A stretch of DNA of 64,000 nt from Rhodanobacter sp. C06. GTDB taxonomy: Bacteria > Pseudomonadota > Gammaproteobacteria > Xanthomonadales > Rhodanobacteraceae. Positions 12,594 to 31,422 of this stretch are shown here, one piece after another (the stretch's first letter is position 1; every line of letters begins with the position of its first letter). The position numbers were made by a program, and so were the translations under genes. The stretch covers positions 62,001-126,000 of the forward strand of contig NZ_MUNP01000043.1 in NCBI RefSeq assembly GCF_002001105.1, in the 5' to 3' direction. The notes beneath the pieces were generated by a model that saw only the letters and a program-made list of their open reading frames with translations, had not been told where the DNA came from and did no database searches.

Positions 12594-15500
12594 ATGCGCA
12601 TGCAGCAACCGGACGGGAAACAGCACGTCACGCCACCCGGCGGCCGCGACGAACGCCTGCCGCCCACTTGGCAGCGCCTGCTGGACTTGCCCAGGGCGTC
12701 GGGCGGCGACGAGTCGGTGGTGCTGGGCTTCTTCCTGGAAGTGATGCCGGAGGAGGGCGCCGCTTGGGCGCACCTCGAAGTGGCGCCGGTGCTGCTTGCC
12801 GTGGCCGAACACGGCCGCTATGCGCGGCCGGCGCCGCTGGACAGCCGGCAGCTGATCCAGGCACCGCTGCCGCCGCACGAGCAGCGCCTCGCCGCCGCCG
12901 TGCTCGGCCTGCCACAGACCCAGCGCAAGGGGCGCAGCTACGCGCGGCTGGGCGGCCACGTCGGTGACAGCCTGCTGGTCGAATTGCTGGACACGGCGCC
13001 ATGTTTCCTCGGCGGCCTCGCCGGCCTACGCCTGTCGCGCGGCAAGGCGCACCCGCTCAACTGGCACTGGCAACTGGAGACGGACGGCAGCCAGCGCTTG
13101 CTGCCGAATCTGCCGCACAGCCAGCGTCTGCTGCGCATCGACGGCCTGTGGTACCTCGACGCCGAGCACGCCACGCTCGGCCATCTGGAGGCCGCGCCCG
13201 AGGAAACGGCATGGATGGACCTGCCGGCGCTGAAGCACGAATACGGGCGCCGCCTCGCCGAGATGCTGCCCGCCAGCCGGTTGGCCGCGCGCATCCCGCC
13301 GCCGCAGGTGTTCGACGAACTGCAGCGCGCCGAGCTGACGCCTAAGCCGGTGCTGACCATGCACGCGTTGACCCGCCACGCGCGCCTCGCCGCCGGCACG
13401 TCGCCGCTGGCCTGGGCGCGGCTGTCCTTCGATTACGCGGGCGAACGCTTGCCCGGCCGCGGCGGCGAGCCGCTGGTGCGCCGCGTGCGCAACGGCCAAT
13501 TGATGGAGATTGTGCGACGCCGCGCGGAAGAGCTTGCCACCATGGAGCAGCTCGAACGCACCGGCCTCACGCCCGCGGTGGACACCGAGGGCTTGCCCTG
13601 GGACATGGCCGACACCATGCCCGACGATGCCTGGCTGTTCCCCGGCACCGGCCACGCCGGTGCGCTGGAAGTGAATACGCCGGCGCGCTGGATGGCGCTG
13701 CGACCGAAGCTGGAAGCGGAAGGTTTCGTGTTGGAGTACGCGCCCAGCTTCCCGTTCGAGGTGCTGGAAGGCCCGGTGCGCTGGTACGGCCAGGCCGCCG
13801 AGGATGCGGACGACCACGCCTTCGATCTGGAGATCGGCATCGAGTTGGAAGGCAAGCGCCACAACCTGTTGCCCGCGGTGGCGCAGGCGCTGGCCGAGCA
13901 CCAGTTGAACCTCAGCCCTGCGCCGAACGAGCCGGAGGACGCGGTGTGGTACGCGCCGGTGGACGAGCGCCGCCGCGTGCCGGTGCGGCTCAAGGTGCTG
14001 CGTGCCCTGCTGGCGCCGCTGGCCGAATACCTGGAGAAGCCGCGCACGAAGCTCCACCTGCCGCGCGTGCAGGCGGGGCGGCTGGAGGAACTGGTCGAGG
14101 CGCTGCCCAGCGACGGCGCGCTGGAGGCGCCCGAGGTGCTGCGCGGCTTCACCGCGCGCCTGCGCGACGCCGCCGAGCGTGCCAGCGACGCGGTGCCCGC
14201 CGGACTCACGGTGGAACTGCGTCCCTACCAGCGCGAAGGCCTGCGCTGGCTGAATGCGCTGGCCGAGGCCGGCGTGGGCGGCGTGCTCGCCGACGACATG
14301 GGCTTGGGCAAGACCCTGCAGCTGATCACCCACCTGCTCGCGCTGAAGGAACGCGGCGCGCTCAACCAGCCTGCGCTGGTGGTGGTGCCCACCAGCCTGA
14401 TCCCGAACTGGCAGGCCGAGATCGCCCGCTTCGCGCCCGCGCTCAAGGTGCTCACCCTGCACGGCCCGCAGCGCGCCGACGCCCACGCCCAACTGGGTGC
14501 GCAGGACATCGTGCTGACCAGCTATGCGCTGCTGCCGCGCGACGTGGTGCCGCTGCGCAAGCAGCCGTTCGCGCTCGCCGTGCTCGACGAGGCGCAGCAG
14601 GTGAAGAATCCGCGCACCCAGGCGCGCCGCGCCCTGCTCAGCCTGCGCACACGCCGGCACGTCTGCCTCACCGGCACGCCGCTGGAAAACCATCTCGGCG
14701 AACTGTGGTCGCAGGTGGACCTCGCCGTGCCCGGCCTGCTCGGCGACGAGAGCGCGTTCCGCCGCTACTACCGCGTGCCGATCGAGAAGCAGCGCGACGA
14801 GGAATGCCTGGCCCGACTCAATCGCCGGCTCGCACCCTTCATCCTCCGCCGCACCAAGGCGCAGGTCGCGTCGGAACTGCCGCCGAAGACCGAGATCACC
14901 CGCCGCGTGGTGCTGGAGGGCCGCCAGCGCGAGCTGTACGAAGGCTTGCGCCTGTCGCTGGCCGAGGAGCTGCGCGAGGTGATCGCCCAGCGCGGCATCC
15001 AGCACTCCGGCATCGTGGTGCTGGACGCGCTGCTCAAGCTGCGCCAGGTCTGCTGCGATCCGCGCCTGGTGAAGCTGGAGGCCGCGCGCGGCGTGCACGG
15101 CTCGGCCAAGTTCGAGCTGCTGATGGACATGCTGGTGCCGCTGCTCGACGAGGGTCGCAAGGTGCTGCTGTTCTCGCAGTTCACTGGCATGCTCAAGCTG
15201 ATCGCGCACGAACTGGATCGCCGCCGCATCCCCTACGTCACCCTCACCGGCGAAACGCGTGACCGCGCCACCCCGGTGCAGCAGTTCCAGCAGGGCGACG
15301 TGCCGCTGTTCCTGCTCTCGCTGAAGGCCGGCGGCGTGGGCCTCAACCTCACCGCCGCCGACACCGTGATCCACTACGACCCGTGGTGGAACCCCGCCGC
15401 CGAGGCGCAGGCCAGCGACCGCGCCCACCGCATCGGCCAGGACAAGCCGGTGTTCGTGTTCCGCCTGATCACCGCCGGCACGGTGGAGGAACGCATCGAG

Positions 15501-15614
15501 GAGCTGAAGGCGCGCAAGGCCGAGCTCGCCGAAGCCGTGCTCGAAGGCGGCGGCAGCCGCGAGAAGCTCAGCTTCGACCAGGACGACCTGGACGCGCTGC
15601 TGGCGCCTGGTTAG
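12594..15614 (+). CDS. SNF2/DEAD-box family ATP-dependent helicase
   Basis: A Swi2/Snf2 double-RecA ATPase of 1006 residues from ATG 12594. Alternatives are ATG 12600 or TTG 12573; an in-frame stop at 12528 lies within the REP palindrome. Residues about 1-520 are a poorly conserved N-terminal region. Walker A is D-D-M-G-L-G-K-T (567-574), the DEAQ box is at 665, and the second lobe has S-Q-F-T-G-M, L-S-L-K-A-G-G-V-G-L-N-L and the arginine-finger region Q-A-S-D-R-A-H-R-I-G-Q. Many bacterial relatives carry an N-terminal SWIM zinc finger; none is visible. Likely acts on DNA- or RNA polymerase-bound complexes. The role is not established. Confidence 0.9.
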   Translation: MRMQQPDGKQHVTPPGGRDERLPPTWQRLLDLPRASGGDESVVLGFFLEVMPEEGAAWAHLEVAPVLLAVAEHGRYARPAPLDSRQLIQAPLPPHEQRLAAAVLGLPQTQRKGRSYARLGGHVGDSLLVELLDTAPCFLGGLAGLRLSRGKAHPLNWHWQLETDGSQRLLPNLPHSQRLLRIDGLWYLDAEHATLGHLEAAPEETAWMDLPALKHEYGRRLAEMLPASRLAARIPPPQVFDELQRAELTPKPVLTMHALTRHARLAAGTSPLAWARLSFDYAGERLPGRGGEPLVRRVRNGQLMEIVRRRAEELATMEQLERTGLTPAVDTEGLPWDMADTMPDDAWLFPGTGHAGALEVNTPARWMALRPKLEAEGFVLEYAPSFPFEVLEGPVRWYGQAAEDADDHAFDLEIGIELEGKRHNLLPAVAQALAEHQLNLSPAPNEPEDAVWYAPVDERRRVPVRLKVLRALLAPLAEYLEKPRTKLHLPRVQAGRLEELVEALPSDGALEAPEVLRGFTARLRDAAERASDAVPAGLTVELRPYQREGLRWLNALAEAGVGGVLADDMGLGKTLQLITHLLALKERGALNQPALVVVPTSLIPNWQAEIARFAPALKVLTLHGPQRADAHAQLGAQDIVLTSYALLPRDVVPLRKQPFALAVLDEAQQVKNPRTQARRALLSLRTRRHVCLTGTPLENHLGELWSQVDLAVPGLLGDESAFRRYYRVPIEKQRDEECLARLNRRLAPFILRRTKAQVASELPPKTEITRRVVLEGRQRELYEGLRLSLAEELREVIAQRGIQHSGIVVLDALLKLRQVCCDPRLVKLEAARGVHGSAKFELLMDMLVPLLDEGRKVLLFSQFTGMLKLIAHELDRRRIPYVTLTGETRDRATPVQQFQQGDVPLFLLSLKAGGVGLNLTAADTVIHYDPWWNPAAEAQASDRAHRIGQDKPVFVFRLITAGTVEERIEELKARKAELAEAVLEGGGSREKLSFDQDDLDALLAPG

Positions 15615-15675
15615 CTGACCCGGTGCCAGCAAGCCGACCTGGTGTTCCGCACGAACCGTTAGACGATGTGCTGGA

Positions 15676-16410
15676 TCAATGGGTCACGATGGGCGTGGAC
15701 GAAGCCGGCGTGTCACCTAGCGATTGCAAGGCGCCCACGGTCACGTTGCCCTGCAGTCCGTCGAAATCCTTGCTGGCGCGCTGGTACAACGCCTGCACCA
15801 CGTGCATCGCCGGCTCCGGGTAATCGGTGAAATCCGAGACGTACTGGATGCCGCCCTCGTGGGCTGCCACCTCGAACGGCCACATCTCCCGGTTGAAACG
15901 GTGGACGGCGCGGGCACCGGCTACCTGGTCGCCGTATTCCGCGCGCAACTGCTTGTAGAGCCGCTCCGCTGCTGCGATTTCCGGTGGCGAACTGCGCAAA
16001 TAAGCCTGCTTGTAGGCCTGCTGGTAGGGCGGCTGATTCTTTCGTTCGATCGACAGTGCCAGCCAAGCCAAGCCCAACGAGCGGTTCTGCGGAACGCCGG
16101 GCACATCGCCGTTGAAATAGAGCAGGCCAAGCGTGTACTGCGCGTTCTTGTTGGCCCAGTGAGCGGACTCTTCGAGATCCACGAGCCCCAGGCGGTAGTG
16201 GCCACGCTGGAAGTAGTACTTCGCCCGGCAGGCGTAGTAATCGCCCGGCATGAACTGCTCGAGGCCTTCATGGCAGTAATAGATCTTTTTTCCCATCGGC
16301 GGAGCCGCCGCCGGTGGCGAGGCGGCGATGGCTGGCGATGCGGTGAGCAGACAGGTGGCCATCGCGATGGTGTACGGGATAGTGCGCAGACGAATCCTAC
16401 GCTGCTTCAT
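15676..16410 (-). CDS. Secreted Sel1-repeat-like protein
   Basis: 244 residues with a signal peptide (to about A-I-A-A at 29). One Sel1-like repeat is recognisable: A-Q-Y-T-L-G-L-L-Y-F-N-G then S-L-G-L-A-W-L-A-L-S (about 90-130). Such repeats fold like TPRs and mediate protein contacts. Two cysteines flank the first helices (Y-Y-C-H-E and Y-A-C-R-A). ATG 16410 is supported by AAGGAGGAG about 6 bases upstream. Probably periplasmic; the function is unknown. Monocistronic and convergent with the SNF2 gene. Confidence 0.7.
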   Translation of the reverse strand: MKQRRIRLRTIPYTIAMATCLLTASPAIAASPPAAAPPMGKKIYYCHEGLEQFMPGDYYACRAKYYFQRGHYRLGLVDLEESAHWANKNAQYTLGLLYFNGDVPGVPQNRSLGLAWLALSIERKNQPPYQQAYKQAYLRSSPPEIAAAERLYKQLRAEYGDQVAGARAVHRFNREMWPFEVAAHEGGIQYVSDFTDYPEPAMHVVQALYQRASKDFDGLQGNVTVGALQSLGDTPASSTPIVTH

Positions 16411-16533
16411 GGCAACTCCTCCTTGCATGCAGGTGCATATGCGGCGGCTGGATCTGGGTCGGCGAGCCAGCCGCTGTATCACGCATGTCGTTGAGCGGCC
16501 TTCCTAGGTTTGTCCAAGGATCTTAGCGCCGAC

Positions 16534-16746
16534 TTAGGCGCGCGCCGCCACCCCGTCGATGCGTTTCAGCATGTCGGCCGAGCCCCGGGACACGCGGAGC
16601 GCGCCGGCGCAGGCGCGTTCGCTCTCGCCACCATCGCCGGAAAGCAGGCCGATACCGAGTGCGCGGGCACGCCGGGCGGCGAGCATGCCCCACACGCTGT
16701 CGCCGACTACCGCGGCGTGGGTGCGATTCATCCGCCTCGCCAAGGC
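16534..16746 (-). pseudogene. 3' fragment of a HAD-family phosphatase gene
   Basis: Translates to the C-terminal about 60-70 residues of a HAD hydrolase, including motif III/IV V-V-G-D-S-V-W-G-M-L-A-A and L-K-R-I-D-G-V-A-A-R-A at the end. By eye, 45 of the last 60 residues match the intact HAD gene at 26587-27288. The nucleophile motif D-x-D and the whole cap domain are missing, so it cannot be an active enzyme. It sits downstream of the halogenase gene in the same orientation as the intact copy. Confidence 0.75.
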
Positions 16747-16830
16747 CGCCGTGGGGCCGTGTTCTCCACGCATCCGGAGCGCGCTTGCCGTCCACGGCCT
16801 CGCCCCTTTCCCTTCGCGAATCCGCGCGGT

Positions 16831-18420
16831 TCAGGCGGTGGCCGCATGCGCGACAGGCGCGTGCGGGCGCCTGCGGTATTCCTCGCACAGGTGCGTGACC
16901 AGGGCGCGGTGGTCCGGCAGGTCGTCGAGGGCCTGCGTGGCCGCCTGCCGGATCATGGCGAATTCGCGGCTGGCTTCGACGCCACGCGGATAAGCGCCGC
17001 GCACAAGCTCGAGGTCGGTTTCGAACTCCATGCCGTAGAGCATGTATTGCCAGCTGGACACCGGGAACATTTCCAGGTCGCCGACGAAATCGAGGCGGTG
17101 CGGCGGGCGGTGCCGCCACTGCGCCAGCTTGTCCTGCAGGCTCTGCGGGATGCCGGCCGGATCGGCGTTGTCGACCCAGAAGGCCGAGTCGCGCCGCCGG
17201 CTCAGGCAGTAGTGCAGCTTGATGAAATCGACGATGCGCTCGTAGCGCGCGGACATCATCGCGTTGAAGTGGCGCGCCGCACGGCCCATGTCGTCGCGGT
17301 CGCCGGGTAGCAGGTGCGTGACCAGGTAGGCGGCCAGCTCGACCAGTGCGATGCCGGTGGATTCCAGCGGTTCCATGAAGCCTCCGGACAGCCCCACCGC
17401 CACGCAGTTGCCGCGCCACGCTTCCGGGCGGTAGCCGTTGTCGAAGCGGATGTGCGTGGCGTCCTGGCCCTCGGCTGCGCTGCCCAGGTAGCGGCGGAAG
17501 GTTTCCTCGGCGCGCGTCGCGTCGGTGTGCCGCGAGGAATACACGTAGCCGACGCCGCGCCGCTGCTGCAGGCCGATGTCCCAGACCCAGCCCGATTCCT
17601 GCGCGGTGCACAGGGTGAACGAGGGGATGGGCGCATCGGGACGCGGGTAGGGCGCTTGCATGGCGACCGCGCGGTCGGTGAACAGCATATCGCCGCAGCT
17701 GCGGTACGGAGAATGCAGCGCTTCGCCGATCAGGCTGGCGCGCATGCCGGTGCAGTCCACGTAGAGGTCGGCCTCCAGTTCGCCGAGTTCGGCGGTGACC
17801 AGTCTGGCGATGCCGCCGTGGTCGTCCGGCACAGCGCGCTCCACGGTCGCCACGTGCCGCCGGATGCCCAGCGCCTGCTGGCCGTGCTCGGCCAGCAGCA
17901 TGGCGAAGCGGCCGGCGTCGAACTGGTAGGCGTGGTTCATCGGCCCCTGGTAATCGGGATCGCGTGCGCGCTTGGGCGCGCGCGAGCGGTCGACCAGCAG
18001 GCTTTGCATGGTCACCGCATCGGCGAAACCCAGGCCGGCGGGTGCTGCACCCAGCAGCCAGTACGGCAGCAACTCGGGGCCGCCGGGGCGCTGGCTGGGC
18101 ACGCTGAAGGGGTGGAAGAAATGTTCCTTGCCGGGCGTGCCGGGTGGCCGCACCCAATGGCGGAAGCGGATGCCCTGCTTGTAGGCGGCGGAGGTCTCCG
18201 CCAGGAAGCGCCGCTCGTCGAGCCCGATCGCCGACAGCGTGCCGCGGATCGACGGAAAGGTGGATTCGCCGAAGCCGATCAGGCCGATCCGGTCGGATTC
18301 CACCAGGTGCACCTGCACGCTGGCCGGGTCGGCGGCATTCACCGCCTTGGCCAGGTAGCAGGCGGTCAGCCAGCCGGCGGTACCGCCGCCCACCACGAGT
18401 ACCTTGCGCAAGCGCTGCAT
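16831..18420 (-). CDS. Flavin-dependent (tryptophan-type) halogenase
   Basis: 529 residues of the Trp_halogenase family, FADH2-dependent enzymes that make HOCl or HOBr and use a lysine to direct it to the substrate. FAD motif G-G-G-T-A-G-W (11-17); G-F-G-E-S-T (49-54). Lys81 (A-A-Y-K-Q-G-I-R-F) matches the catalytic lysine of PrnA/RebH. M-E-P-L-E-S-T-G-I holds the conserved glutamate. The usual W-x-W-x-I-P reads W-V-W-D-I-G, so the proline is changed. No flavin reductase is encoded nearby. Downstream of a TonB receptor (154-base gap) in a beta-glucoside locus; similar pairings are known in related bacteria but the substrate is not. ATG 18420 has AAAGGAGCGACC upstream. Confidence 0.85.
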   Translation of the reverse strand: MQRLRKVLVVGGGTAGWLTACYLAKAVNAADPASVQVHLVESDRIGLIGFGESTFPSIRGTLSAIGLDERRFLAETSAAYKQGIRFRHWVRPPGTPGKEHFFHPFSVPSQRPGGPELLPYWLLGAAPAGLGFADAVTMQSLLVDRSRAPKRARDPDYQGPMNHAYQFDAGRFAMLLAEHGQQALGIRRHVATVERAVPDDHGGIARLVTAELGELEADLYVDCTGMRASLIGEALHSPYRSCGDMLFTDRAVAMQAPYPRPDAPIPSFTLCTAQESGWVWDIGLQQRRGVGYVYSSRHTDATRAEETFRRYLGSAAEGQDATHIRFDNGYRPEAWRGNCVAVGLSGGFMEPLESTGIALVELAAYLVTHLLPGDRDDMGRAARHFNAMMSARYERIVDFIKLHYCLSRRRDSAFWVDNADPAGIPQSLQDKLAQWRHRPPHRLDFVGDLEMFPVSSWQYMLYGMEFETDLELVRGAYPRGVEASREFAMIRQAATQALDDLPDHRALVTHLCEEYRRRPHAPVAHAATA

Positions 18421-18440
18421 GGTCGCTCCTTTGAAGAAGA

Positions 18441-18560
18441 AACGCCGGGCCCCGTCCGGAGCCCGGCAATGCCATCCCGGGGAGGGAGGGCGGCGCCAGC
18501 CCGCTCGGCTGGCGGCGCCACAGAATGGCAAACAGTCAGCGGCGCCGGTCGAACGGCGCC
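18441..18560 (-). promoter_or_regulatory. Stem-loop cluster between TonB receptor and halogenase
   Basis: Three GC-rich hairpins fill the gap: GCCGGGC/GCCCGGC (18444-18467), GCCAGCC/GGCTGGC (about 18495-18513) and GGCGCCG/CGGCGCC (18541-18560). None has a U-tract. They could lower read-through from the receptor gene into the halogenase gene, or protect the receptor mRNA 3' end. Confidence 0.45.
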
Positions 18561-18574
18561 GCCCATTCCTGGTG

Positions 18575-21007
18575 TCAGAACGAAGTGCCGAACTGGATGC
18601 CGTAGGTGCGCGGCGCGAGGTACTCGGACACGTACTCGAAACTGCCGTCGGGCATCTGGAAGCGCCCGGCGTTGGTGCGCACCTTCACGTCGGTGACGTT
18701 CTGCGAATACACGCTGATCCACCAGCGGTCCTGCGGCTCCGTGTAGCGCAGCGACAGGTCGCCGCGGAAGTATGCTTTCTGCTGGTCGCCGCTGCCAAGG
18801 TTGAACGGGCTCAGCCACTGCATGCTCTGGTACTGGCCACTGAAGCGCGGGGTGAGGCGGCCACCGCTGGGCAGCACGAAGTCGTGCTCGTAGATGGCGG
18901 ACAGCGAAACCGTTGGCGCGTGCGCCAGGTCGTTGCCGGTGATGTCCATGCAACTGGCGATGCCCGACTGCGGCGCGCATGCCGGCAAGCCCTGGTAGTC
19001 GTTGCTGCCGGCGTACACCAGCGTGCCCAAGGTCTTCTTGGGAATGTACGAGAGCACCAGGTTCGCGCGGTCGTTCGGCTGCTGGTACGCCAGCTCCGAT
19101 TCGAAGCCGGCCACCTTGGTGCTGCCGCCGACGTTCGAGAAGCCCAGGCCGCGGTTGCCGTTCGGGTAGGTGATCGGCGCGGAAAGCTGGAAGTCCTTGA
19201 AGTTTTCGTAGTAGGCCGCGCTGTTCCAGGTCAGGTGGCCGTCGAGGAAGGTGAACTTGGCGCCGATCTCGTAGTTGGTCAGCGTCTCCGGCTTGTACAG
19301 CGTGCCGGCGTCCTGCGTGCCGCCCGATTTGTAGCCGGTGGACACGCTGGCATACAGCATGCCGTGCTCGCCGATGTCGGTGTCGATCCGGCCCAGCCAC
19401 GTCCACTGACCCTTGCTGTACTTGGCGTCGTTGTAGGTGGATACCGCGAAACCGGTCGCCGGGCCAGGGATGGTGCTCGGCGCGATCGGCAGTGGCAGCA
19501 CGTTGGGGTCGTTGTCCCAGCCCCAGCCGCGGCCGTCGATGTTGCGCTTCTCGTCGTTCGACCAGCGCAGGCCGCCGGTCAGGTGCCAACGGTCGGACAG
19601 GTTCCAGGTGGCCTGCCCGAACAGGGCGGTGGAATTCACCAGCTCCTTGGGCTGTATGAACGAGCCCTGCCATGACACCGAGCCGTACTGCGTGCCATTC
19701 ATGATCGGGATGTCGAAGCGGATGTTGTTGTCTTCGTGACCGTAATAGGCGCCGACGATCCAGTCGACCGTCTGCTGTCCGCGCGACTTCAGGTCGAGCT
19801 CGTGGCTGTAATTGCTGTAGTTGGAGGAGTTGGTGCGGTCGGCCTGGTAGGACGCGCCCGTGGTGAAGCTGGTGGGCACCTGTACGCCGACGTCCTGGTC
19901 GAAGTTGCCCTCGCCGGAGAAGCGGTTGACGCCGGCTATGTAGCTCAGCTCCATGCTGTCGTTGATGTCCCAGTCCATGCGGCTGCGCAGCGTGCCCGAG
20001 TTGCGGTGCAGGTAGGGCGGCGTGTCGATCAGCGCCGACCAGAACGACTGGCCGCGGCGCGGCGTCTGCATCAGGCTGAGATCGGGCGTGCCGCGGTCGA
20101 TGAAGTACTCGTAGGAGAGGTCCCAGGTGAACGAGTCGCTGGGTTGCCAGCGCGCGCTCACGCGGGCGGCGGACTGGTCCTGCGAGTTGTACTTCGCGCC
20201 GTTCTGTTCGTACTGGTTCGGATCGATCGCGCGGAAGTTGGCGAGGGTGCCCCCCGAGGCGAGATAGGACGCCTGCTGCTGCGCCACGCTGGGCAGTTCG
20301 GTGGCCGGGTTCTGATAGTCGACGTAGCCGTCGTGCTGCTCGTGTACCACCGCGACGCGCATCGCGAAGGTGCTGCTGATCGGCAGGTTCACCGCCGCGC
20401 GGACGCCCGACTGGTTGTAATTGCCGGCTTCGATCTGGGCATAGCCCGAAGCATCGCCGCCGATGTCCGGCTTGGCGGTCTGGAAGCTCATCGCGCCGGC
20501 GGTGGAGTTGCGTCCCCACAGGGTTCCCTGCGGGCCGCGCAGCACTTCCACGCCGTCCATGTCCAGCAGCAGGCCGGCCGCGGCCTCGGCCCGTGCCGTA
20601 TAGACGCCATCGACGAAGATGGCGACTTCGGGGTCGGCATATTCGGTCTTGGCACTGTCGTTGCCGATGCCGCGCATGGTCAGGGTGACCACGCCGTGGT
20701 CACCTTCGGAGGTGGCCTGCAGGCCCGGAACCAGCGGGGTCAGGTCCTGCACCGTCATCACGCGCTGCTTGTCGAGCGTGTCAGCGGTGATCGCGCTGAC
20801 GGCGACCGGGGTCTTCTCCAGCGGCGTTTGGCGCTTGGTCGCGCTGACTTCGACGGTGGCGAGCTGCTGGATCTTCTTGTTCGTCTTCACCGGTGCGGCT
20901 TGGGCGGTGGAATCCTGCGGCGCTGCGCCTTGCTCCGCGGCCTGGGCCAGGCATGGGGCGAGGGCGAGCGACAGGGCGATGTGCAACGCTGAGTAGCGCA
21001 ACTTCAT
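18575..21007 (-). CDS. TonB-dependent receptor of the glucoside locus
   Basis: 810 residues: signal peptide (A-L-S-L-A-L-A-P-C-L-A-Q-A), N-terminal plug domain starting near T-V-E-V-S-A-T-K and containing V-E-V-L-R-G-P-Q-G-T-L-W-G-R-N-S-T-A-G-A, and a 22-strand outer-membrane barrel ending R-T-Y-G-I-Q-F-G-T-S-F with terminal Phe. It should import an oligosaccharide across the outer membrane using TonB energy. I chose ATG 21007 (GAGGGG about 8 bases upstream); an open frame continues upstream across the operators. Two LacI-type palindromes lie 82-119 bases upstream. It heads the receptor-halogenase transcription unit. Confidence 0.93.
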   Translation of the reverse strand: MKLRYSALHIALSLALAPCLAQAAEQGAAPQDSTAQAAPVKTNKKIQQLATVEVSATKRQTPLEKTPVAVSAITADTLDKQRVMTVQDLTPLVPGLQATSEGDHGVVTLTMRGIGNDSAKTEYADPEVAIFVDGVYTARAEAAAGLLLDMDGVEVLRGPQGTLWGRNSTAGAMSFQTAKPDIGGDASGYAQIEAGNYNQSGVRAAVNLPISSTFAMRVAVVHEQHDGYVDYQNPATELPSVAQQQASYLASGGTLANFRAIDPNQYEQNGAKYNSQDQSAARVSARWQPSDSFTWDLSYEYFIDRGTPDLSLMQTPRRGQSFWSALIDTPPYLHRNSGTLRSRMDWDINDSMELSYIAGVNRFSGEGNFDQDVGVQVPTSFTTGASYQADRTNSSNYSNYSHELDLKSRGQQTVDWIVGAYYGHEDNNIRFDIPIMNGTQYGSVSWQGSFIQPKELVNSTALFGQATWNLSDRWHLTGGLRWSNDEKRNIDGRGWGWDNDPNVLPLPIAPSTIPGPATGFAVSTYNDAKYSKGQWTWLGRIDTDIGEHGMLYASVSTGYKSGGTQDAGTLYKPETLTNYEIGAKFTFLDGHLTWNSAAYYENFKDFQLSAPITYPNGNRGLGFSNVGGSTKVAGFESELAYQQPNDRANLVLSYIPKKTLGTLVYAGSNDYQGLPACAPQSGIASCMDITGNDLAHAPTVSLSAIYEHDFVLPSGGRLTPRFSGQYQSMQWLSPFNLGSGDQQKAYFRGDLSLRYTEPQDRWWISVYSQNVTDVKVRTNAGRFQMPDGSFEYVSEYLAPRTYGIQFGTSF

Positions 21008-21088
21008 TTCGTATCCCCTCGAGCTTTGTTCTTGACTGACGTGTGTGCCATCGGCATGGCCGTGGCGGCTTGTTTCTGCTCCCCTGAA

Positions 21089-21102
21089 TGACAGCGCTGT
21101 CC
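21089..21102. promoter_or_regulatory. LacI-family operator, copy 1 (TonB receptor promoter)
   Basis: TGACAGCGCTGTCC, one base different from the perfect 14-bp palindrome found at 21113 and 25244. The central CG pair is typical of LacI/GalR-family sites. Its centre is 24 bases from that of copy 2, so two dimers may bind on similar DNA faces. Confidence 0.75.
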
Positions 21103-21112
21103 TTGCAAGAAA

Positions 21113-21126
21113 TGACAGCGCTGTCA
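21113..21126. promoter_or_regulatory. LacI-family operator, copy 2 (TonB receptor promoter)
   Basis: The perfect palindrome TGACAGCGCTGTCA, with the flanks AAA before and AATT after. The whole 21-base stretch is identical to that at 25241-25261. On the minus strand it includes TTGACA, so it may cover the -35 element. Predicted to be bound by the LacI protein encoded at 25380-26396. Confidence 0.82.
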
Positions 21127-21258
21127 AATTCATGATAACGCCGATTTGCAGGCAAATCATGTTGCAATGCGAAACATGCTTATTGCCTGTTTTCATCAGC
21201 CGGTTTCCCGCTTGCATATGAAGCAGTCGGACGGTTCCCGCGTTTCGGTACGGCGGAT

Positions 21259-22650
21259 TCATCGGCCCAGCATGCGCAGGGGCCGCCCGGACATCAGCTG
21301 CCGTTCGATCTGCTCCAGCGTCACGCCGCGCGTCTCCGGAACCCAGGCGCGGGTGAAGGCGACGAAGACGAGGTTGAGCGCCGCATACAGCCAGAACGTC
21401 CGCGCCGTGCCGATGCCGTCGAGCAGGCTGAGAAAGCTGGCGCCCACCGCCATGTTGATCACCCAGTTGGCGAACGTCGAACAGGCGATGCCGAAGTCAC
21501 GCCCCCGGAGCGGTTGCACCTCCGAACAAAGCGTCCAGACCATCGGGCCGGCGGACATCGCGAAGCCGGCGATGAATACGAGCAGCGCGGCGACCCCCGC
21601 GATCTGCAGACCGTGCGTCGGCGTGCCCGTCCGCATCAGCGCGCCCACCGTGCCGAGGCTGGCCGCCATGACGGCGAAACCAAGGTAGAGGATGGGCCTG
21701 CGGCCCCAGCGGTCCACCAGGCCGATCGCGGCGAAGGTTGCCAGCATGTTGACGAGGCCGACGATGGCGGTGGCCCACATCTGCGCGCTGCCGCCGAAGC
21801 CCATGCCTGCGAAGATGCGCGGCGCGTAATACATGACCACGTTGATCCCGGTGAGCTGCTGCATGACCTGCAGCAGCACGCCCAGTCCCACCGAGCGCCG
21901 GAAGTTTGCATTGCGCAGAAACAGTTGCCAGCCGTGCTGCGGCGATTGCAGCTGCCGCGCGATGTCGTCTGCCTCGCGGCGGGCCTCTTCCGTGTCCTCG
22001 CGCAACCTGCCCAGTACCGCGATGGCCTCGTCGCGCCGCCCGCGCAGCAGCAGCCAGCGCGGGCTTTCCGGCAGGCCCAGCACGCCCAGCAGGAACAGGG
22101 CCCCGGGCAGCGCGACGATCCCGAGCATCCAGCGCCACGCGCCGCTGTAGCTCAGCGCCGTGTCGGACAGGAAGGCCATGAAGATGCCGATGGTGATCAT
22201 CAGCTGGTAAGTGGAAATCATCGCGCCGCGGATACGCCCGGGCGCCACTTCGGCAAGGTAAAGCGGTGCGGTGAAGGTCGCCGTGCCGATCGCCAGCCCG
22301 AGCACAAGGCGCGCACCGGCGAGCATCCACGGCGACCATGCGAGACCACACAGCAGCGACCCGCCCACGAACAGCACGGCGCCGAAGACCAGCGAACGCT
22401 TGCGGCCCAGCGTCGCCGACAACCAGCCGGCCGCGGCGGCGCCGATCGCCGCACCCAGCATCATCGAACTGACGATCCACTCGATGGCGCGGTTGGACAC
22501 CTCGAATTCGGCTTGGATGAACCGGGTGGCGCCCGCGATCACGCCGATGTCCAGCCCGAACATCAGGCCGGCGAGGGCAGCCAGCACGCAGGTGAGGATG
22601 GCCGCGAAACCGCTGCGTGTGCGTGCCTTCATGGCGATGGCGTCGGTCAT
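21259..22650 (-). CDS. Sugar porter family MFS transporter (sugar/H+ symporter)
   Basis: 463 residues, twelve transmembrane segments, inner membrane. Sugar-porter signatures: G-L-D-I-G-V-I-A-G-A in helix 1, G-R-K-R-S after helix 2, P-E-S-P-R-W-L-L before the central loop, Q-Q-L-T-G-I-N in helix 7, D-R-W-G-R-R-P after helix 8 and P-E-T-R-G-V-T-L-E-Q-I-E at the end. Closest in style to GalP/XylE-type proton symporters. It follows the beta-glucosidase gene by 33 bases, so it probably takes up the glucose released in the periplasm. ATG 22650 has AGGGGAA 4 bases upstream. Confidence 0.93.
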   Translation of the reverse strand: MTDAIAMKARTRSGFAAILTCVLAALAGLMFGLDIGVIAGATRFIQAEFEVSNRAIEWIVSSMMLGAAIGAAAAGWLSATLGRKRSLVFGAVLFVGGSLLCGLAWSPWMLAGARLVLGLAIGTATFTAPLYLAEVAPGRIRGAMISTYQLMITIGIFMAFLSDTALSYSGAWRWMLGIVALPGALFLLGVLGLPESPRWLLLRGRRDEAIAVLGRLREDTEEARREADDIARQLQSPQHGWQLFLRNANFRRSVGLGVLLQVMQQLTGINVVMYYAPRIFAGMGFGGSAQMWATAIVGLVNMLATFAAIGLVDRWGRRPILYLGFAVMAASLGTVGALMRTGTPTHGLQIAGVAALLVFIAGFAMSAGPMVWTLCSEVQPLRGRDFGIACSTFANWVINMAVGASFLSLLDGIGTARTFWLYAALNLVFVAFTRAWVPETRGVTLEQIERQLMSGRPLRMLGR

Positions 22651-22683
22651 GGATTCCCCTTCAGGCAGATGCGGTGGACCGGA

Positions 22684-25188
22684 TTAGCGCGCGCAATCGA
22701 GCGCGCGGTCGGCGTTGGTGCCCAGGGCCGCGCTGGTGATCGACAACCGCTCCCCCTTGCCGGCCTCGAGCACGAAGGGCTCCGTGACGTGGCGCATGTT
22801 GGCGCCGGCGGCGCGCAGGCATTTCAGCGGTACGCCGATACGCTGCCAGCGTCCCTGCGCGAGTACGGCATCCAGCTTGACGCGTCCGCGGCAGTCATGG
22901 CCGCAACCCATGCCGATCCACACCGGCTGGGTGCCTTGCGCGTCCATGCGCAGCGTGACGATCAGCATCATGTCGCCGTTGGCCTGGCGACTGAGGTCGA
23001 GCGGCTTGACGGAGGCGAGCGCGAGGGAAGCCGGGCCGTCGATCCACTCGAGCTGGCGCGCATCCTCCTGTGCCTTGTAGTCAAGCGCCGTCACGCGCAG
23101 GCCGCCATCCGCGGTGGCAGTCGGCGTCGCGGTCACCACGACGGCCTTGTGGTCCGCGCCGACAAGCGAAAGCGTGTAGCCGCCGACGGCCTTGCCTTTC
23201 TCCAGGTAGTCGTCCACGCGCACGGTGTCGCCGCTGATGCCGGATTGCTCCGGCAGCTTCGGCAACACGACTCGGTCTGCATAGGTGAGGCCGTAACCCA
23301 GCGGAAACTGCGGCTTGCCGCGGCCGGGCGCGGCGCTGCCGGGCCAGGCGAACGCCAGTTTGCCGCGAAAGTCGAAGTCGACCTGGCCGTCGCGCTTGCG
23401 CAGCAGCACGTCGGCCACGCCGCCGCCTTCGCTGCCGGGCAGCCAGGCGGCGACGAAGGCGTTGGCCGCATTGATCTCGCGGTTCAACCACAGCGGCCTG
23501 CCGCCCAGATACACCGCGACCACCGGGATGCCCTGCGCTCGCAGGTGGCGGATCAGCTCAAGGTCGTGATCGTCGCCCGGATGGAACAGCAGGTTGGCGA
23601 TGTCGCCCTGGAACTCCGCGTAGGGCGACTCGCCGAACACCACCACCGCCACGTCGGGCTTGTGCGTGTAGCGGCCATCCGGCGCGATCTCCGCCTCACC
23701 GCTGGCGGCCTTCACCTGCTCGGCGATGCCGGTGCCGATCGATTGCGCGCCTGGAAAATCGGCGTTGCTGAGTCCAGTACCCTGCCAAGTCAGCGTCCAG
23801 CCGCCGCTTTGCTGCGAGATACTGTCGGCGCCTTCGCCCGCGACCAGGATGCGCTGGTGCGGATTCAGCGGCAGCAGGTTGCCGTCGTTCTTCAGCAGGA
23901 CCAGCGATTCGCGCACGGCGCGGCGCGCCAGTGCGCGATGTGCTGCGTTGCCGACGATGCGGTCGGAGTCGCGCGCCAGCGGTTGCGTGGACGGCGCGCC
24001 GGCGGTGAACAGCCCCATGCGAAATTTCACGCGAAGAATGCGCGCCACCGCGTCGTCGACGCGCGCCATCGGGATCGCGCCGGACTCCACCTCGGCCAGC
24101 GTGTGCTTGTACAGGCCCAGCCAGCTGTCCGGCGCCATCAGCATGTCGGCGCCGTTGTTGAACGCGGCGGGGCAATCCTCGTTGCTGCAGCCGGGAACCT
24201 GGCCGTGCGCGTTCCAGTCGCCGACCACGAAGCCCTGGAAATCCATGCGCCGCTTCAGCACGTCGGTGAGCAGGCCCTTGTTGCCCAGCATCTTCACGCC
24301 GTTCCAGCTGGAGAACGAGGCCATCACGGTCTGCACGCCGGCATCGATCGCGGGCGGGTAGCCGGCGGCGTGCACGGCGATCAGCGTGTGCTCGTCGATC
24401 TCGGCATCGCCCTGATCCTTGCCGTCCTTGGTGCCGCCGTCGGCGAGGAAGTGCTTGGCGCTGGCGATGGTGTGGGCGTCGTCGAGGAAGTCGCGCGTGC
24501 CGGGCGTGCCCTGCAGGCCTTCCACGATCGCGCCGGCATAGCTGGCCACCACGCGCGGATCCTGCGAATAGCCTTCGTAGGCGCGACCCCAGCGCAGATC
24601 CTGCGGCACCGCCAGCGTGGGCGCGAAGCTCCAGTTGAAGCCGGTGGCGCGCACCTCGGCCGCGGTGGCGGCGCCGATCTCGCGTATCAGTCCGGGATCG
24701 CGGGCGTTGCCCAGCGCCGAGTTCTGCGGGAACAGCGTGGCGCCGAGGGTGCCGTTGTTGCCGTGCACGGCATCGATGCCGAACAGCGGCGGGATCGCCG
24801 CGTGGCCGCCCGCGGTGTCCATCGCCGCGCGGTAGAACGCGTCGGCCAGCGCCTTCCACTGCGCCACGGTGGCGAAGCGTCCGCCGCCCGGCTTGGAGTT
24901 GCCGCCGGCGAGGATGGAGCCGAGGTGGTATTCGCGCATCTGCTCCGGCGTGATGCTGGCGATGTCGGCCTGGATCAGCTGTCCCACCTTGTCCCGCACC
25001 GACATCTTCGCCATCAGCGCGTGTACGCGCTGCTCCAGCGCGGCATCCGGCGGCAGCGGCCAATGGGCCTTGGGCCACAGGGCGGGATGCACGGTCGCGG
25101 CGCCATCGCCCAGCGCGATGCCGATGGGTGCGAGAGCCAGCAGCGCGGCGAGCAGGGTGCGGGGCAGTGGCGGGTGTCGGACGATCAT
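22684..25188 (-). CDS. Glycoside hydrolase family 3 beta-glucosidase (ExoP/periplasmic type)
   Basis: 834 residues from ATG 25188 (GAGGAG 8 bases upstream), with a signal peptide ending near G-I-A-L-G. GH3 N-terminal barrel: K-V-G-Q-L-I-Q-A-D, F-G-I-D-A-V-H-G-N-N and K-H-F-L-A-D-G-G-T. The nucleophile is Asp324 in G-F-V-V-G-D-W-N-A-H-G. The C-terminal GH3 domain follows (L-L-K-N-D-G-N-L-L-P-L), then an ExoP-like beta-sandwich (about 670-834). The family hydrolyses beta-1,3/1,4-glucosides from the non-reducing end. Probably periplasmic or outer-membrane associated. First gene of a bgl-transporter operon with a LacI site 56 bases before the start. Confidence 0.92.
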   Translation of the reverse strand: MIVRHPPLPRTLLAALLALAPIGIALGDGAATVHPALWPKAHWPLPPDAALEQRVHALMAKMSVRDKVGQLIQADIASITPEQMREYHLGSILAGGNSKPGGGRFATVAQWKALADAFYRAAMDTAGGHAAIPPLFGIDAVHGNNGTLGATLFPQNSALGNARDPGLIREIGAATAAEVRATGFNWSFAPTLAVPQDLRWGRAYEGYSQDPRVVASYAGAIVEGLQGTPGTRDFLDDAHTIASAKHFLADGGTKDGKDQGDAEIDEHTLIAVHAAGYPPAIDAGVQTVMASFSSWNGVKMLGNKGLLTDVLKRRMDFQGFVVGDWNAHGQVPGCSNEDCPAAFNNGADMLMAPDSWLGLYKHTLAEVESGAIPMARVDDAVARILRVKFRMGLFTAGAPSTQPLARDSDRIVGNAAHRALARRAVRESLVLLKNDGNLLPLNPHQRILVAGEGADSISQQSGGWTLTWQGTGLSNADFPGAQSIGTGIAEQVKAASGEAEIAPDGRYTHKPDVAVVVFGESPYAEFQGDIANLLFHPGDDHDLELIRHLRAQGIPVVAVYLGGRPLWLNREINAANAFVAAWLPGSEGGGVADVLLRKRDGQVDFDFRGKLAFAWPGSAAPGRGKPQFPLGYGLTYADRVVLPKLPEQSGISGDTVRVDDYLEKGKAVGGYTLSLVGADHKAVVVTATPTATADGGLRVTALDYKAQEDARQLEWIDGPASLALASVKPLDLSRQANGDMMLIVTLRMDAQGTQPVWIGMGCGHDCRGRVKLDAVLAQGRWQRIGVPLKCLRAAGANMRHVTEPFVLEAGKGERLSITSAALGTNADRALDCAR

Positions 25189-25243
25189 TCGCGCGCTCCT
25201 CGGCGGCATGGGCCGCTGGCGAGGCGGTAATGTCCAGCAAAAA

Positions 25244-25257
25244 TGACAGCGCTGTCA
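25244..25257. promoter_or_regulatory. LacI-family operator, copy 3 (beta-glucosidase promoter)
   Basis: The perfect palindrome TGACAGCGCTGTCA, between the lacI-type gene and the GH3 gene, with 21 bases identical to the site at 21110-21130. On the minus strand it contains TTGACA, which may be the -35 element of the GH3 promoter, so binding would block RNA polymerase. Confidence 0.82.
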
Positions 25258-25379
25258 AATTTCGATGCGAAAGGTCTGTTCGAACACCCGTCCGGGCCGG
25301 TCCATGCGAAGGGACATGGCGGGGGTTCCGCCGGCGCAAGCCCGGGAAGGTGGGCGGATGCGCGTTGCGCGCCGCGCGG

Positions 25380-26396
25380 TCAGTCCGGCACGGCGGCCGT
25401 CGATGCGCGCAGCTGCAGCTCGTAGGGAATCTGCACCAGCCGTGCGTCGCCGCGTCCGCGCAACTGCAACAGCAGCTGTTGCGCGGCGAGCCTGCCCATC
25501 TCGCGGCTGGGCTGCCGCACGGTGGTCAGCGACGGCCACAACTGGGTCGCCATCGGAGTGTCGTCGAAACCGCATACGGAGAGATCGCGCGGCACCTTGA
25601 GGCCGATTTCGTTGGCCGTCCACATGACGCCGGCGGCCATGTCGTCGTTTGCCGCGAAGATCGCGGTCGGCCGGCGCTTCAGGGTGAACAGCTGGCGCGC
25701 CGCGACGACGCCCGAGCCGAAGGTGAATCCGCCTTGCACGATGTACTGGGGATCGATGGCGAGGCCGGCCGCGGTCAGGGCGGCCTTGTACCCGGCCTGG
25801 CGCCAACGGCTGGCCCCGTGGTCGGCGATGCCCACGACGTGTGCGATGCATCGATGGCCGAGGCCGACCAGGTGGGTGACCAGGTCGCTGGCCGCCTTCT
25901 GCTCGTCCATGAAGACGCCGACGACGTCCTTGTGGCGCACGGGCGAAATGCAGGCGTACGCCACGCCGTGTTCCTGCAGCCGCGCCAGCAGCTTGCGGTT
26001 GTCGGTGAGTGGCGGGGTCAACACGACGCCGTCGATGTGATGGTCGGTCACCAGGGCGTCGACGCGCCGGACGAAATCCTTCCCGCGCATGCGCAGCGGA
26101 CAGACCATCATGCTGTAGCGGTGCGCCTCGCAGGAATCGAGCACGCCATCCTGGATTTCGGCCAGATAAGTCGATGCGGGATTGTCGTTGTTGTCGTACA
26201 GCATCGCGACCAGGAACGAACGACTGCCGGCCAGGCCACGCGCGGCGGGACTTGGGCGATAGTTCATCGACTCCATCGCCGCCAGCACCTTCTGGCGCGT
26301 TGCCTCCTTGACCGACGGCTCCTCGTTCAGGACGCGGGAAACCGTTTTCGGCGAGACGCCTGTTGCGCGCGCCACATCTTCCAGTCGCACTCGCAT
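25380..26396 (-). CDS. LacI-family transcriptional regulator of the glucoside locus
   Basis: 338 residues: an N-terminal helix-turn-helix (L-E-D-V-A-R-A-T-G-V-S-P-K-T-V-S-R-V-L-N, about 5-24), hinge helix R-P-S-P-A-A-R-G-L-A and a periplasmic-binding-protein-like sensor domain (about 62-330, with I-F-A-A-N-D-D-M-A-A-G-V). Predicted to repress the GH3-transporter and receptor-halogenase units through TGACAGCGCTGTCA and to release on binding a glucoside or its product. ATG 26396 has AGGAG 13 bases upstream. No operator copy is seen at its own promoter. Confidence 0.93.
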   Translation of the reverse strand: MRVRLEDVARATGVSPKTVSRVLNEEPSVKEATRQKVLAAMESMNYRPSPAARGLAGSRSFLVAMLYDNNDNPASTYLAEIQDGVLDSCEAHRYSMMVCPLRMRGKDFVRRVDALVTDHHIDGVVLTPPLTDNRKLLARLQEHGVAYACISPVRHKDVVGVFMDEQKAASDLVTHLVGLGHRCIAHVVGIADHGASRWRQAGYKAALTAAGLAIDPQYIVQGGFTFGSGVVAARQLFTLKRRPTAIFAANDDMAAGVMWTANEIGLKVPRDLSVCGFDDTPMATQLWPSLTTVRQPSREMGRLAAQQLLLQLRGRGDARLVQIPYELQLRASTAAVPD

Positions 26397-26586
26397 GGTG
26401 TTTCGAATCTCCTGCCGCTGCCCGGTGGCGTGCGATGGCCCGGATATTAGAGCTTGTCCGGCGAGTGTCTCCAACTGGCCCGCGCCGCCGGGCCGCAACC
26501 GCCGGGCGGCAGCCAGCCTTCGTTCTTCCCCGGCTCGTGCGCAAACGGCTCCCGGTGCGGATCGCACGGAGACCGTGGACAGGCCT

Positions 26587-27288
26587 TCAGGCCCGCGCCG
26601 CCACCTCGTCAATGCGCTTCAGCATGTCCGCCGGATCCTCGTACACGCGGAACGCGCCGGAGCGGGCGAGTTCTTCTTCGCCGTAGCCGCCGGAGAGCAG
26701 GCCGATGCCCAGCGCGCGGGCGCGCTGCGCGGCGAGCATGTCCCACACGCTGTCGCCCACCACCATGGCGCGGGTGATGTCCACGCCCAGCCGTTCGGCG
26801 GCGGCGAGGAACAGGTCGGGGTCGGGCTTGGCGTGGCGCACCTGGTCGCGGGTCACTACTGGCACCTTCGCGGGATCGACGCCGAGTGCTTCGAGGTTGT
26901 GGCGAGCGGTGCGCAGCTGGCCGCTGGTGGCGATCGCCCAGGGGATTTCCGCGGCGCTGAGGTAGGCCAGCAGTTCGCGCGCGCCGGGCAGCGGCTTGAC
27001 CGCGCCCTGCGCATGCTGGCGGTTGAACGCGGCGGCGTGGGCGTCATACAGGCGGGTGCGGCGTTCCTCGCTGATTTCCTGCCCGGTCTCGCGCAGCAGC
27101 ATGCGGGTGAACAGGCCGCCACTCATGCCGATGCGGCGGTGGATGCGCCATACCGAGAGGTCGATGCCTTCGCTGTCCAGCGCTTCCTTCCACGCCAGCA
27201 CATGCTGGTAGACGCTGTCGACGAGGGTGCCGTCGAGGTCGAACAGGAAGGCGCTGTCGCGGCGTGGCATGGCGGGTCCGTGGCTCAT
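26587..27288 (-). CDS. HAD-superfamily phosphatase (beta-PGM/phosphoglycolate phosphatase-like)
   Basis: 233 residues from ATG 27288; ATG 27270 is an equally possible start. Motif I is F-L-F-D-L-D-G-T-L-V-D-S (Asp17 nucleophile, Asp19 acid/base), followed by a helical cap (about 30-90), motif II A-T-S-G, the motif III lysine in H-A-K-P-D-P-D-L-F and motif IV V-V-G-D-S-V-W-D-M. Related to phosphoglycolate phosphatase and beta-phosphoglucomutase. It lies between glk and lacI, which suggests sugar-phosphate turnover; the substrate is not known. A 3' fragment of a homologous gene lies at 16534. Confidence 0.88.
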   Translation of the reverse strand: MSHGPAMPRRDSAFLFDLDGTLVDSVYQHVLAWKEALDSEGIDLSVWRIHRRIGMSGGLFTRMLLRETGQEISEERRTRLYDAHAAAFNRQHAQGAVKPLPGARELLAYLSAAEIPWAIATSGQLRTARHNLEALGVDPAKVPVVTRDQVRHAKPDPDLFLAAAERLGVDITRAMVVGDSVWDMLAAQRARALGIGLLSGGYGEEELARSGAFRVYEDPADMLKRIDEVAARA

Positions 27289-27418
27289 TTGAAAAGTGCG
27301 GCCGAGGATGGCCGCCCGTTTGATCTTCGCAATCAGGGACGATTGCAGGAACATTGAAAAGTGCGGCCACGCATCGCCGCCGGCTTGATTTTGCGACCAC
27401 CATCCATGGCGGTGGTCT
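27289..27418. repeat. Imperfect tandem duplication between HAD gene and glk
   Basis: Two copies about 65 bases apart begin TTGAAAAGTGCGGCC (27289-27303) or ATTGAAAAGTGCGGCC (27353-27368), continue with GCCGCC and CTTGATTT-type sequence, and then diverge. Read on the minus strand both could encode K-I-K-x-A-A-x-x-G-R-T-F-Q, but no gene uses this. The second copy runs into a small palindrome ACCACC/GGTGGT (27401-27421). Probably a dispersed intergenic repeat. Confidence 0.5.
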
Positions 27419-27446
27419 CCCTGCGGGCCATCGCCGCCCCGACGTC

Positions 27447-27468
27447 AAAAATCGCTCGGGGCGATTTT
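27447..27468 (-). terminator. Intrinsic terminator after glk
   Basis: On the minus strand AAAATCGC, a short CCCGA loop and GCGATTTTT form an 8-bp stem ending in T's, 8 bases after the glk stop. A good fit to a rho-independent terminator. Confidence 0.7.
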
Positions 27469-27475
27469 CTCGCGA

Positions 27476-28495
27476 TCAGGCACGATCGCAACGAACAAGG
27501 CTGTGGCCCGCGGCACGCAGCGCGATCGCCGCGGCGCCCAGCAGGCCGGGTTCCGGATGCACGATGGCCAGCGTGGGCACCCGTTCCATCGTCTCGCGGA
27601 AGCGACCCTTGGCTTCGAAGCGTTCGCGGAAGCCGCCGCGATGCAGCCACGGCAGCAGGAACGGCAACACGCCGCCGGTGAGGTAGACGCCGTCCCAGCC
27701 GCCCAGGCTCAGCACCAGGTCGCCGGCCACGCTGCCGAAGATGCCGGCCAGCGTCTCCACCGTGCGCACGCACAGCGGGTCGCTGCCGTCCTCGGCGTGC
27801 GCGGTGATGTCCTCGGGCGTGTATTCCTCGGCCGGCTGGCCGGCGATGTCGGCCAGCGCGAGATAGAGGTTCACCAGGCCGTTGCCGCAGATCATGCGCT
27901 CGTTGGAGACGCGGCCGAAGCGCGCGTTGAGCCGGTGCAGGATCTCCACATCCTCGGCGGTGTGCGCGGCGAAGCCGGCGTGGCCACCCTCGCTTTCCAG
28001 CACGATCCACTGTTCGTCGCGCCACAGCAGGCCGGCCACGCCGAGGCCGGTGCCCGGCCCCATCACCACGAAGGTCTGCGGCTGCGGCAGGCCCAGCGTT
28101 GGCGCGCCCAGCGGACCCACCGGCGCCAGCGCGTCGGTGGCCAGCAGCGGCACCGCCATGCTCTGCGCGGCGAAATCGTTGACCAGCCGCACCGATTGCA
28201 TGCCCAGTTCGGCCTGCAGCGCATGCGCGGCGATCGCCCAGGGATTGTTGGTGACCTTCACCGTCTCGCCGCCGGCGATGCGCCCCGCCGCGGCGATCAC
28301 CGCCTGCGCGGGGTGGCAGCCGGTGTCGGCGAAGTACTGCCGCGCGGCGGCGGCGAGCGAGGCGAAATCCTTGACCCGGTAGCGGCGCACGCTGTCCATG
28401 ACCAGCGGCGTGGCGGTGTCGTCGCCGGCCAGCGCGAAGCGCACGTTGGTGCCGCCCAGGTCGGCAAGCAGGGTGGAGGGGGTTGCGTGGGGCAT
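27476..28495 (-). CDS. glk: Glucokinase
   Basis: 339 residues of the proteobacterial glucokinase (ROK-unrelated) family. It phosphorylates cytosolic glucose with ATP to glucose 6-phosphate. N-terminal phosphate-binding motif L-L-A-D-L-G-G-T-N-V-R-F-A-L, V-N-D-F-A-A-Q-S (catalytic Asp), V-V-M-G-P-G-T-G-L-G-V-A and L-E-S-E-G-G-H-A-G-F. Start ATG 28495; a longer frame exists upstream without support. It completes the locus: periplasmic beta-glucosidase, glucose symporter, glucokinase. It has its own terminator, so it is probably a separate unit or followed by a weakly coupled HAD gene. Confidence 0.93.
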   Translation of the reverse strand: MPHATPSTLLADLGGTNVRFALAGDDTATPLVMDSVRRYRVKDFASLAAAARQYFADTGCHPAQAVIAAAGRIAGGETVKVTNNPWAIAAHALQAELGMQSVRLVNDFAAQSMAVPLLATDALAPVGPLGAPTLGLPQPQTFVVMGPGTGLGVAGLLWRDEQWIVLESEGGHAGFAAHTAEDVEILHRLNARFGRVSNERMICGNGLVNLYLALADIAGQPAEEYTPEDITAHAEDGSDPLCVRTVETLAGIFGSVAGDLVLSLGGWDGVYLTGGVLPFLLPWLHRGGFRERFEAKGRFRETMERVPTLAIVHPEPGLLGAAAIALRAAGHSLVRCDRA

Positions 28496-28663
28496 CGGGG
28501 GACAGCCTGCGGCGGTGCACAAAGGACAAGCCTGCCTTGTCAGGCCGGTGCGCGTCTACTGTGTGCATACGTATGGTGCGCAAACGGGGCTTGGAACCCG
28601 TCCAGATCCCCCCCGTGGCCCGCGTCAGGACAACGCAGGCCACGGGAGGCTCGTAACCCACGC

Positions 28664-30262: not shown

Positions 30263-30397
30263 GAGGGTGCCTCCCGTGATGGTCGAGGCGAGCCTGCGCC
30301 GAACCGTGTATGCAGGGCGTGGGCCAGATGTTGGCGCTTCGTGCGGCGCGGCTGCGGCAAAGCGTCCGCGGCGGTCGTGGCTGCGTGGCGCGGCGCT

Positions 30398-31422
<1,025 letters not shown>

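Follow-up and report, generated by a model that had tools for sequence, protein, structure and literature searches.

The window analysed here is a stretch of 64,000 nucleotides from Rhodanobacter sp. C06 (contig NZ_MUNP01000043.1, positions 62,001 to 126,000), in which a cassette of five genes lies between two HAD phosphatase sequences. Read along the minus strand, an intact HAD gene (26587–27288) is followed by genes for a LacI-family regulator (25380–26531), a GH3 beta-glucanase/beta-glucosidase (22684–25209), a sugar porter of the major facilitator superfamily (MFS; 21259–22650), a TonB-dependent receptor (TBDR; 18575–21262) and a tryptophan-halogenase-family flavoprotein (16831–18531), behind which stands a second, partial HAD sequence (16534–16723). 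Upstream of the intact HAD gene lies its conserved neighbour, the glucokinase gene (Glk, minus strand, 27476–28522; Pfam Glucokinase 1.5e-97), which 60 of 80 loci carry upstream of HAD at a distance of 2.5 kb or less. On the other side, the partial copy is followed by a Sel1-like repeat gene (minus strand, 15676–16482, with its true start probably at 16416; the Pfam Sel1 match is weak and below cut-off) and by a gene for an SNF2-type helicase (plus strand, 12573–15614; Pfam SNF2-rel_dom 8e-70). The evidence assembled below points to the interval between HAD and SNF2 as a variable site at which two natural versions have become fused.

The minus strand carries both HAD sequences, and 45 of their 60 C-terminal residues are identical, exactly as the initial annotation had claimed, and the genes listed between them (halogenase, TonB receptor, a symporter that is the sugar porter, GH3 and LacI) are each backed by Pfam. 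At the nucleotide level, where the annotation had proposed a comparison, self-alignment of the window places 16536–16723 against 26589–26776 without gaps over 188 bp, with 80.3% identity (E 4e-43). The existence of the fragment is confirmed by this but its proposed extent, 16534–16746, is not, as the HAD homology ends at 16723 and positions 16724–16744 are homologous to the 3′ tip of a P450 gene. Taken alone, the 79-residue open reading frame of the fragment matches no Pfam or NCBIfam model at E 0.001. The pair is nevertheless no chance match, because the fragment runs on into a stretch that aligns with the HAD-Sel1 spacer of G010, the nearest relative (relatives are denoted by G numbers). The intact gene (Pfam Hydrolase/HAD_2), whose closest match in the PDB is 3s6j (E 6e-80), is present in full in all 15 same-genus genomes searched, and none of them carries two full copies, a situation for which the relatives were checked. 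Among these 15, only the genome of the window has a second, partial match at E 1e-16; a second match in G009 is another HAD protein with 32% identity. Similarly, in a set of 150 sequences (the window and 149 fetched loci, including the window genome's own locus), 130 match the HAD 3′ end, the window alone doing so in two separate places. Just upstream of the intact gene, a 39-bp direct repeat (82%) occupies 27289–27327 and 27354–27392.

The origin of the partial copy is seen by comparison with G010, which carries gpsA-SNF2-Sel1-HAD-Glk-sedolisin-hemB in this order and without the cassette. Such a glk-HAD arrangement had been looked for among relatives, and its presence in G010 is in keeping with the annotated view of the cassette as a unit placed at a HAD gene. 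Window positions 8602–16723 and 27470–31418 are colinear with this cassette-free genome; 9000–16723 aligns as one block at 94.5% identity, 26589–27347 at 89.3% and 27470–31418 at 94.1%. Further along, 52329–54737 has no match in the syntenic region of G010. The alignment passes through the stop codon of the partial copy and through the spacer to Sel1, which identifies this copy, by colinearity, as the HAD end of the Sel1-SNF2 flank and not as part of the cassette. On its far side the variable site is anchored by the conserved SNF2 gene, which is present in 15 of 15 same-genus genomes and is 96.5% identical to G010 in nucleotide sequence. Sel1, which stands between HAD and SNF2 in G010, does so in 13 of the 60 loci that hold both genes (80 loci from genome contigs were examined), Frateuria and Dyella records among them, and the order HAD-Sel1-SNF2 is therefore widespread. 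The suggestion that HAD was duplicated along with the cassette is not supported by these comparisons, since the fragment shares its stop and spacer with G010 while the intact gene adjoins LacI, just as it does in relatives that have the cassette.

The partial copy comprises the last 62 codons and the stop of a former HAD gene, and from its sequence it is a dead relic that decays neutrally. It carries 28 changes of its own at positions where G010, G001 and the intact HAD gene agree with each other, distributed over codon positions 1, 2 and 3 as 6, 12 and 10. This even spread, from which the loss of function follows, fits the absence of selection (p 0.37) and rejects the ratios of functional HAD genes (p 6e-9). 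The relic also lacks the second aspartate of GDSVWDM, a residue which we take to matter for HAD catalysis. An identity of about 75% had been read as the sign of an old event or of a diverged allele arriving with the cassette; the event does look old, but a diverged incoming allele is not supported, as the low identity results mainly from neutral decay.

Between halogenase and relic the window holds remains of two further genes. The halogenase 3′ spacer (16745–16830) retains the tail of an ABC-transporter gene that is otherwise deleted; this tail is clearest at 16758–16799 and matches the ABC 3′ ends of G004, G014, G003, G001 and G013 at E 3e-9 to 5e-5 (alignments with G004 and G014). It is followed by the P450 3′ tip, the last codons of a convergent gene (plus strand, 16724–16744), aligned with the end of the Pfam P450 gene of G002 (locus L045, 6760–6780). 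Behind the halogenase the window can be aligned to G002 through the ABC tail into the last P450 codons, as far as 16719, giving the order halogenase, ABC tail, P450 tip, HAD relic. The fusion point is placed at 16717–16723 (minus strand), where the window reads CACCCAC and both parental types, the P450 end of G002 and the HAD gene of G010, read CACCCGC. The parental types accordingly share 7 bp at the junction; at least seven shared bases were obtained in 0.18% of 200,000 random joins of the G002 P450-end and G010 HAD sequences.

The same site in other relatives supplies the intermediate arrangements. HAD-LacI-GH3-TBDR-halogenase occurs at this position in G013 and G002, and likewise, without the halogenase, in G005; in G007 these genes are split over two contigs, a short one with HAD and LacI and a second one with GH3, TBDR and part of the halogenase. 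The intact HAD gene adjoins LacI in all four, making it the homology anchor of the cassette, and a T at 26611 is common to the window, G013, G002 and G007 only, among 11 genomes tabulated. The stretches fetched from G010, G014, G001, G003, G004 and G008 show no cassette gene in the HAD-SNF2 interval. In G001, G003, G004 and G014 an ABC-transporter gene follows HAD, representing the empty site, and in G013 the cassette sits between HAD and this gene, with the complete ABC gene and then P450 behind the halogenase; the identity of the ABC gene was established with Pfam on the G013 and G001 proteins. In G002 most of the ABC gene is gone, and the halogenase is followed by a piece of the ABC tail and then by the convergent P450 gene. 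The far end of the cassette thus differs between genomes, being bordered by a complete ABC gene in G013 and by ABC tail and P450 in G002. Loss of the cassette also appears to be recorded. In the cassette-free G008, the sequence behind HAD (L047, 4633–4681) can be aligned to the HAD-LacI spacer of G013 until 5 bases before the LacI start, a remnant that is likely a scar of cassette loss. The cassette is present in G007, the genome next to G008 in the Glk-HAD tree (bootstrap 100).

Since the window has a G002-type ABC tail and P450 tip that pass into HAD at the 7 bp shared by the parental types, two versions of one site are read as fused, an interpretation to which we give a probability of roughly 70%. 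What can be read off the alignments is that there are two versions, that the window has a hybrid of their gene orders, where the junction lies and that the relic decays neutrally. Version 1, Glk-HAD-Sel1-SNF2, is that of G010 and of other genera; version 2, Glk-HAD-[LacI-GH3-TBDR-halogenase]-ABC tail-P450-TetR-SNF2, resembles G002. DNA of version 2 would have engaged version 1 by homologous pairing on the Glk-HAD side, where long homology is common to both (the window shares 87–96% of Glk and 89–94% of HAD nucleotides with G002, G013 and G010). The other end, within the P450 3′ tip, would have been joined, without long homology, at the 7-bp microhomology, some 63 codons short of the 3′ end of the resident HAD gene. 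The product would have an intact HAD gene before the cassette and, on its other side, a remnant of 190 bp of HAD that remains joined to Sel1. This course of events would correspond to homology-facilitated illegitimate recombination. We infer that the cassette entered a Sel1-type chromosome, that the step in Glk-HAD depended on RecA, and that the fusion predates the split from G010; after this split, G010 would have lost the cassette through allelic replacement with a cassette-free version.

The age estimate relies on several comparisons. In the relic 28 private changes have accumulated, against an expectation of about 9 for the time since the split from G010 (P 5e-7), with 99 changes over 1018 intergenic positions as the yardstick. 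In addition, HAD (0.145; 19/131, p 0.004) and Sel1 (0.175; 18/103, p 0.0007) are more diverged from G010 than SNF2 (0.066; 41/620). With the moderate dating that these figures allow, the fusion is probably old, preceding the split, and the site in G010 was probably replaced later by a cassette-free version. At 4-fold sites, GH3 and TBDR differ between the window and G002, G013 and G005 by 0.199, 0.194 and 0.309, and the core genes (gpsA, SNF2 and hemB) by 0.189, 0.186 and 0.323; LacI is left out of these figures, and there is no core figure for G007. GH3 and TBDR are therefore about as old here as the lineage, or come from an equally distant relative. The descent of the cassette is not settled by the cassette tree, in which one of the two internal branches has a bootstrap of 48. 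The idea that G010 ejected its cassette through recombination of HAD with the relic is not supported, since no change unique to relic and G010 occurs in the HAD 3′ part, with the last 18 bp as a possible exception.

Several observations weigh against the proposed fusion or its dating. The parental types are known through the present-day relatives G002 and G010, which are not the true parents, and no clear mosaic breakpoint appears in HAD, either in sliding identity or in 4-fold counts; the homologous crossover is therefore deduced indirectly and could lie in Glk or further upstream. The 140 bp between HAD and LacI (26447–26586) are unmatched in G002 and G013, have weak, scattered matches in other loci and are unexplained. 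The relic contains neither stop nor frameshift, although a few might be expected, and its position in a tree of HAD 3′ ends is unsupported (bootstrap 38–45), the sequence being too short. The intergenic yardstick is small and uneven, ranging from 0.035 to 0.375 between stretches, and dating the fusion before the split requires a second event, the loss in G010. Moreover, the clocks disagree. The halogenase differs from that of G013 at 0.110 of 4-fold sites, compared with 0.186 in the core, and G002 and G013 differ from each other by 0.200 in GH3 and TBDR, compared with 0.148 in the core, so that no simple clock applies and an exchange of cassette parts between lineages is likely.

Two variants of the fusion compete most seriously with the course preferred here, each of them unlikely. 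In the first, the direction is reversed, and a resident cassette would have received Sel1 and the HAD 3′ end from a Sel1-type strain, in place of TetR-P450, through homologous recombination at SNF2 and a microhomology join at the P450 tip. The divergence of GH3 and TBDR, close to that of core genes, is what vertical descent would give, and the spacer kept in cassette-free G008 indicates that losses probably occur in the clade. Sel1 is however also present in the sister genome G010 and behind HAD in other genera, and therefore looks ancestral here. Furthermore, the ABC deletion is common to the window and G002, whereas G013 keeps the ABC gene even though it groups with G002, apart from the genome of the window, in the core tree (bootstrap 100). 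In the second variant, judged equally improbable, a single insertion took place after the G010 split and G010 lost nothing. This requires the fewest events and agrees with flanks that are both about 94% identical to G010, but it leaves the excess of private relic changes and the greater divergence of HAD and Sel1, as compared with SNF2 and Glk, unaccounted for.

The remaining explanations fare far worse. Tandem duplication of HAD and cassette within this genome, followed by deletion, would give two HAD sequences of the same orientation, and is very improbable because the sequence between relic and halogenase is ABC tail and P450 tip rather than a piece of Glk or of the cassette, while the stop and spacer of the relic match G010 and not the intact HAD gene. 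Still less credit is due to a mobile element, either a transposon or an integrative element, inserted with target duplication. A direct repeat does bracket the cassette, but it is the 190-bp 3′ end of a gene and not a short target duplication, it is part of the Sel1 flank, and no second HAD site is seen in the relatives that have the cassette; a Pfam scan found no integrase or transposase among the 9 proteins of 15676–28522, and the terminal sequences of the cassette are not constant between genomes. An assembly chimera, conceivable for a draft genome of 82 contigs with an estimated contamination of 2.25%, is hardly credible when the relic flank matches the nearest relative and the relic holds 28 changes absent from G010, G001 and the intact copy, where a misjoin would more likely show a segment of the intact HAD gene.

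The fusion remains the preferred account, and a wider one may be attached to it, tentatively and with doubt prevailing over belief. The HAD 3′ end could serve as a standing homology handle at which the beta-glucan cassette is repeatedly gained, lost and re-edged within the genus, without a mobile element, each event leaving a scar. The HAD relic of the window, the HAD-LacI spacer of G008 and the ABC tail of G002 would be such scars.

The cassette combines a TonB receptor, a hydrolase, a porter and a regulator, as assigned by Pfam and NCBIfam. The halogenase-family protein (Pfam PF04820, 1.5e-122) has 2pyx as its closest solved relative (E 9e-120); the receptor has Plug and barrel domains, and its true start is probably downstream of the open reading frame start; the GH3 enzyme, with an ExoP-type C-terminal domain, matches PDB 3usz, an exo-1,3/1,4-beta-glucanase (E 5e-210); the regulator contains Pfam LacI and Peripla_BP_3, and the porter scores above the cut-off of TIGR00879. 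Together with the neighbouring glucokinase, the cassette likely takes up beta-glucan fragments and breaks them down to glucose 6-phosphate. The porter has no match in the loci of G002, G013, G007 and G005, there being none between GH3 and TBDR in these four other cassette-bearing genomes. A GH3-porter pair is found in G009 and G006, where it does not share a contig with glk-HAD. A palindrome, TGACAGCGCTGTCA, occurs perfectly at 21113, before TBDR, and at 25244, before GH3, and with one mismatch at 21089 (spans 21089–21126 and 25244–25257). These positions only suggest that the copies are candidate operators of the cassette LacI protein; counted at up to 3 mismatches, the motif has 5 matches in all, which equals chance expectation. 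Composition, for which a comparison with the flanks had been proposed, gives the cassette no foreign mark. The G+C content at third codon positions (GC3) of its five genes is 0.86–0.91, inside the 0.79–0.92 of eight other genes computed, and a foreign composition was accordingly rejected, that of the cassette being native.

Carbohydrate utilisation loci with TonB receptors are known in Xanthomonadales, in which a TonB receptor, a glycoside hydrolase, an inner-membrane porter, a LacI regulator and a halogenase-family protein occur together. The cassette of the window shares this gene set, and differs in being coupled to glk-HAD and in its patchy presence at the site. A literature search found no publication on the halogenase together with TonB.

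As to the process, homology-facilitated illegitimate recombination is reported for three naturally competent species and for Escherichia coli conjugation (PMC3240628), and there too one end enters through homology and the other through illegitimate joining. The present case differs in that it is read from genome comparison and looks old, and in that two versions of the same site are joined rather than a laboratory construct and a chromosome. Among the cases compared, the nearest is that of the type VI effector-immunity arrays of Vibrio cholerae. In the orphan immunity-gene arrays an incoming module inserts at a conserved sequence upstream and leaves the 3′ part of the older genes behind it, for which the authors propose a mechanism akin to homology-facilitated illegitimate recombination (PMC5361080). 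Entry at a conserved sequence and 3′ remnants left behind are common to both systems; the V. cholerae remnants are immunity genes that accumulate, whereas the window holds one dead 190-bp stub behind a sugar cassette.

The locus adds a case to a process already known, and the case is well resolved through intermediates among relatives. It has the look of ordinary bacterial recombination whose trace is well preserved, and not of a mobile element of a new kind. A gene fragment that brackets a cassette need not, then, imply a mobile element. The site provides a layered, roughly datable record of insertion, loss of a neighbouring gene and then fusion with another allele, the steps being represented by living relatives, and illustrates how ordinary recombination can carry an accessory sugar-uptake cassette from one chromosome to another.

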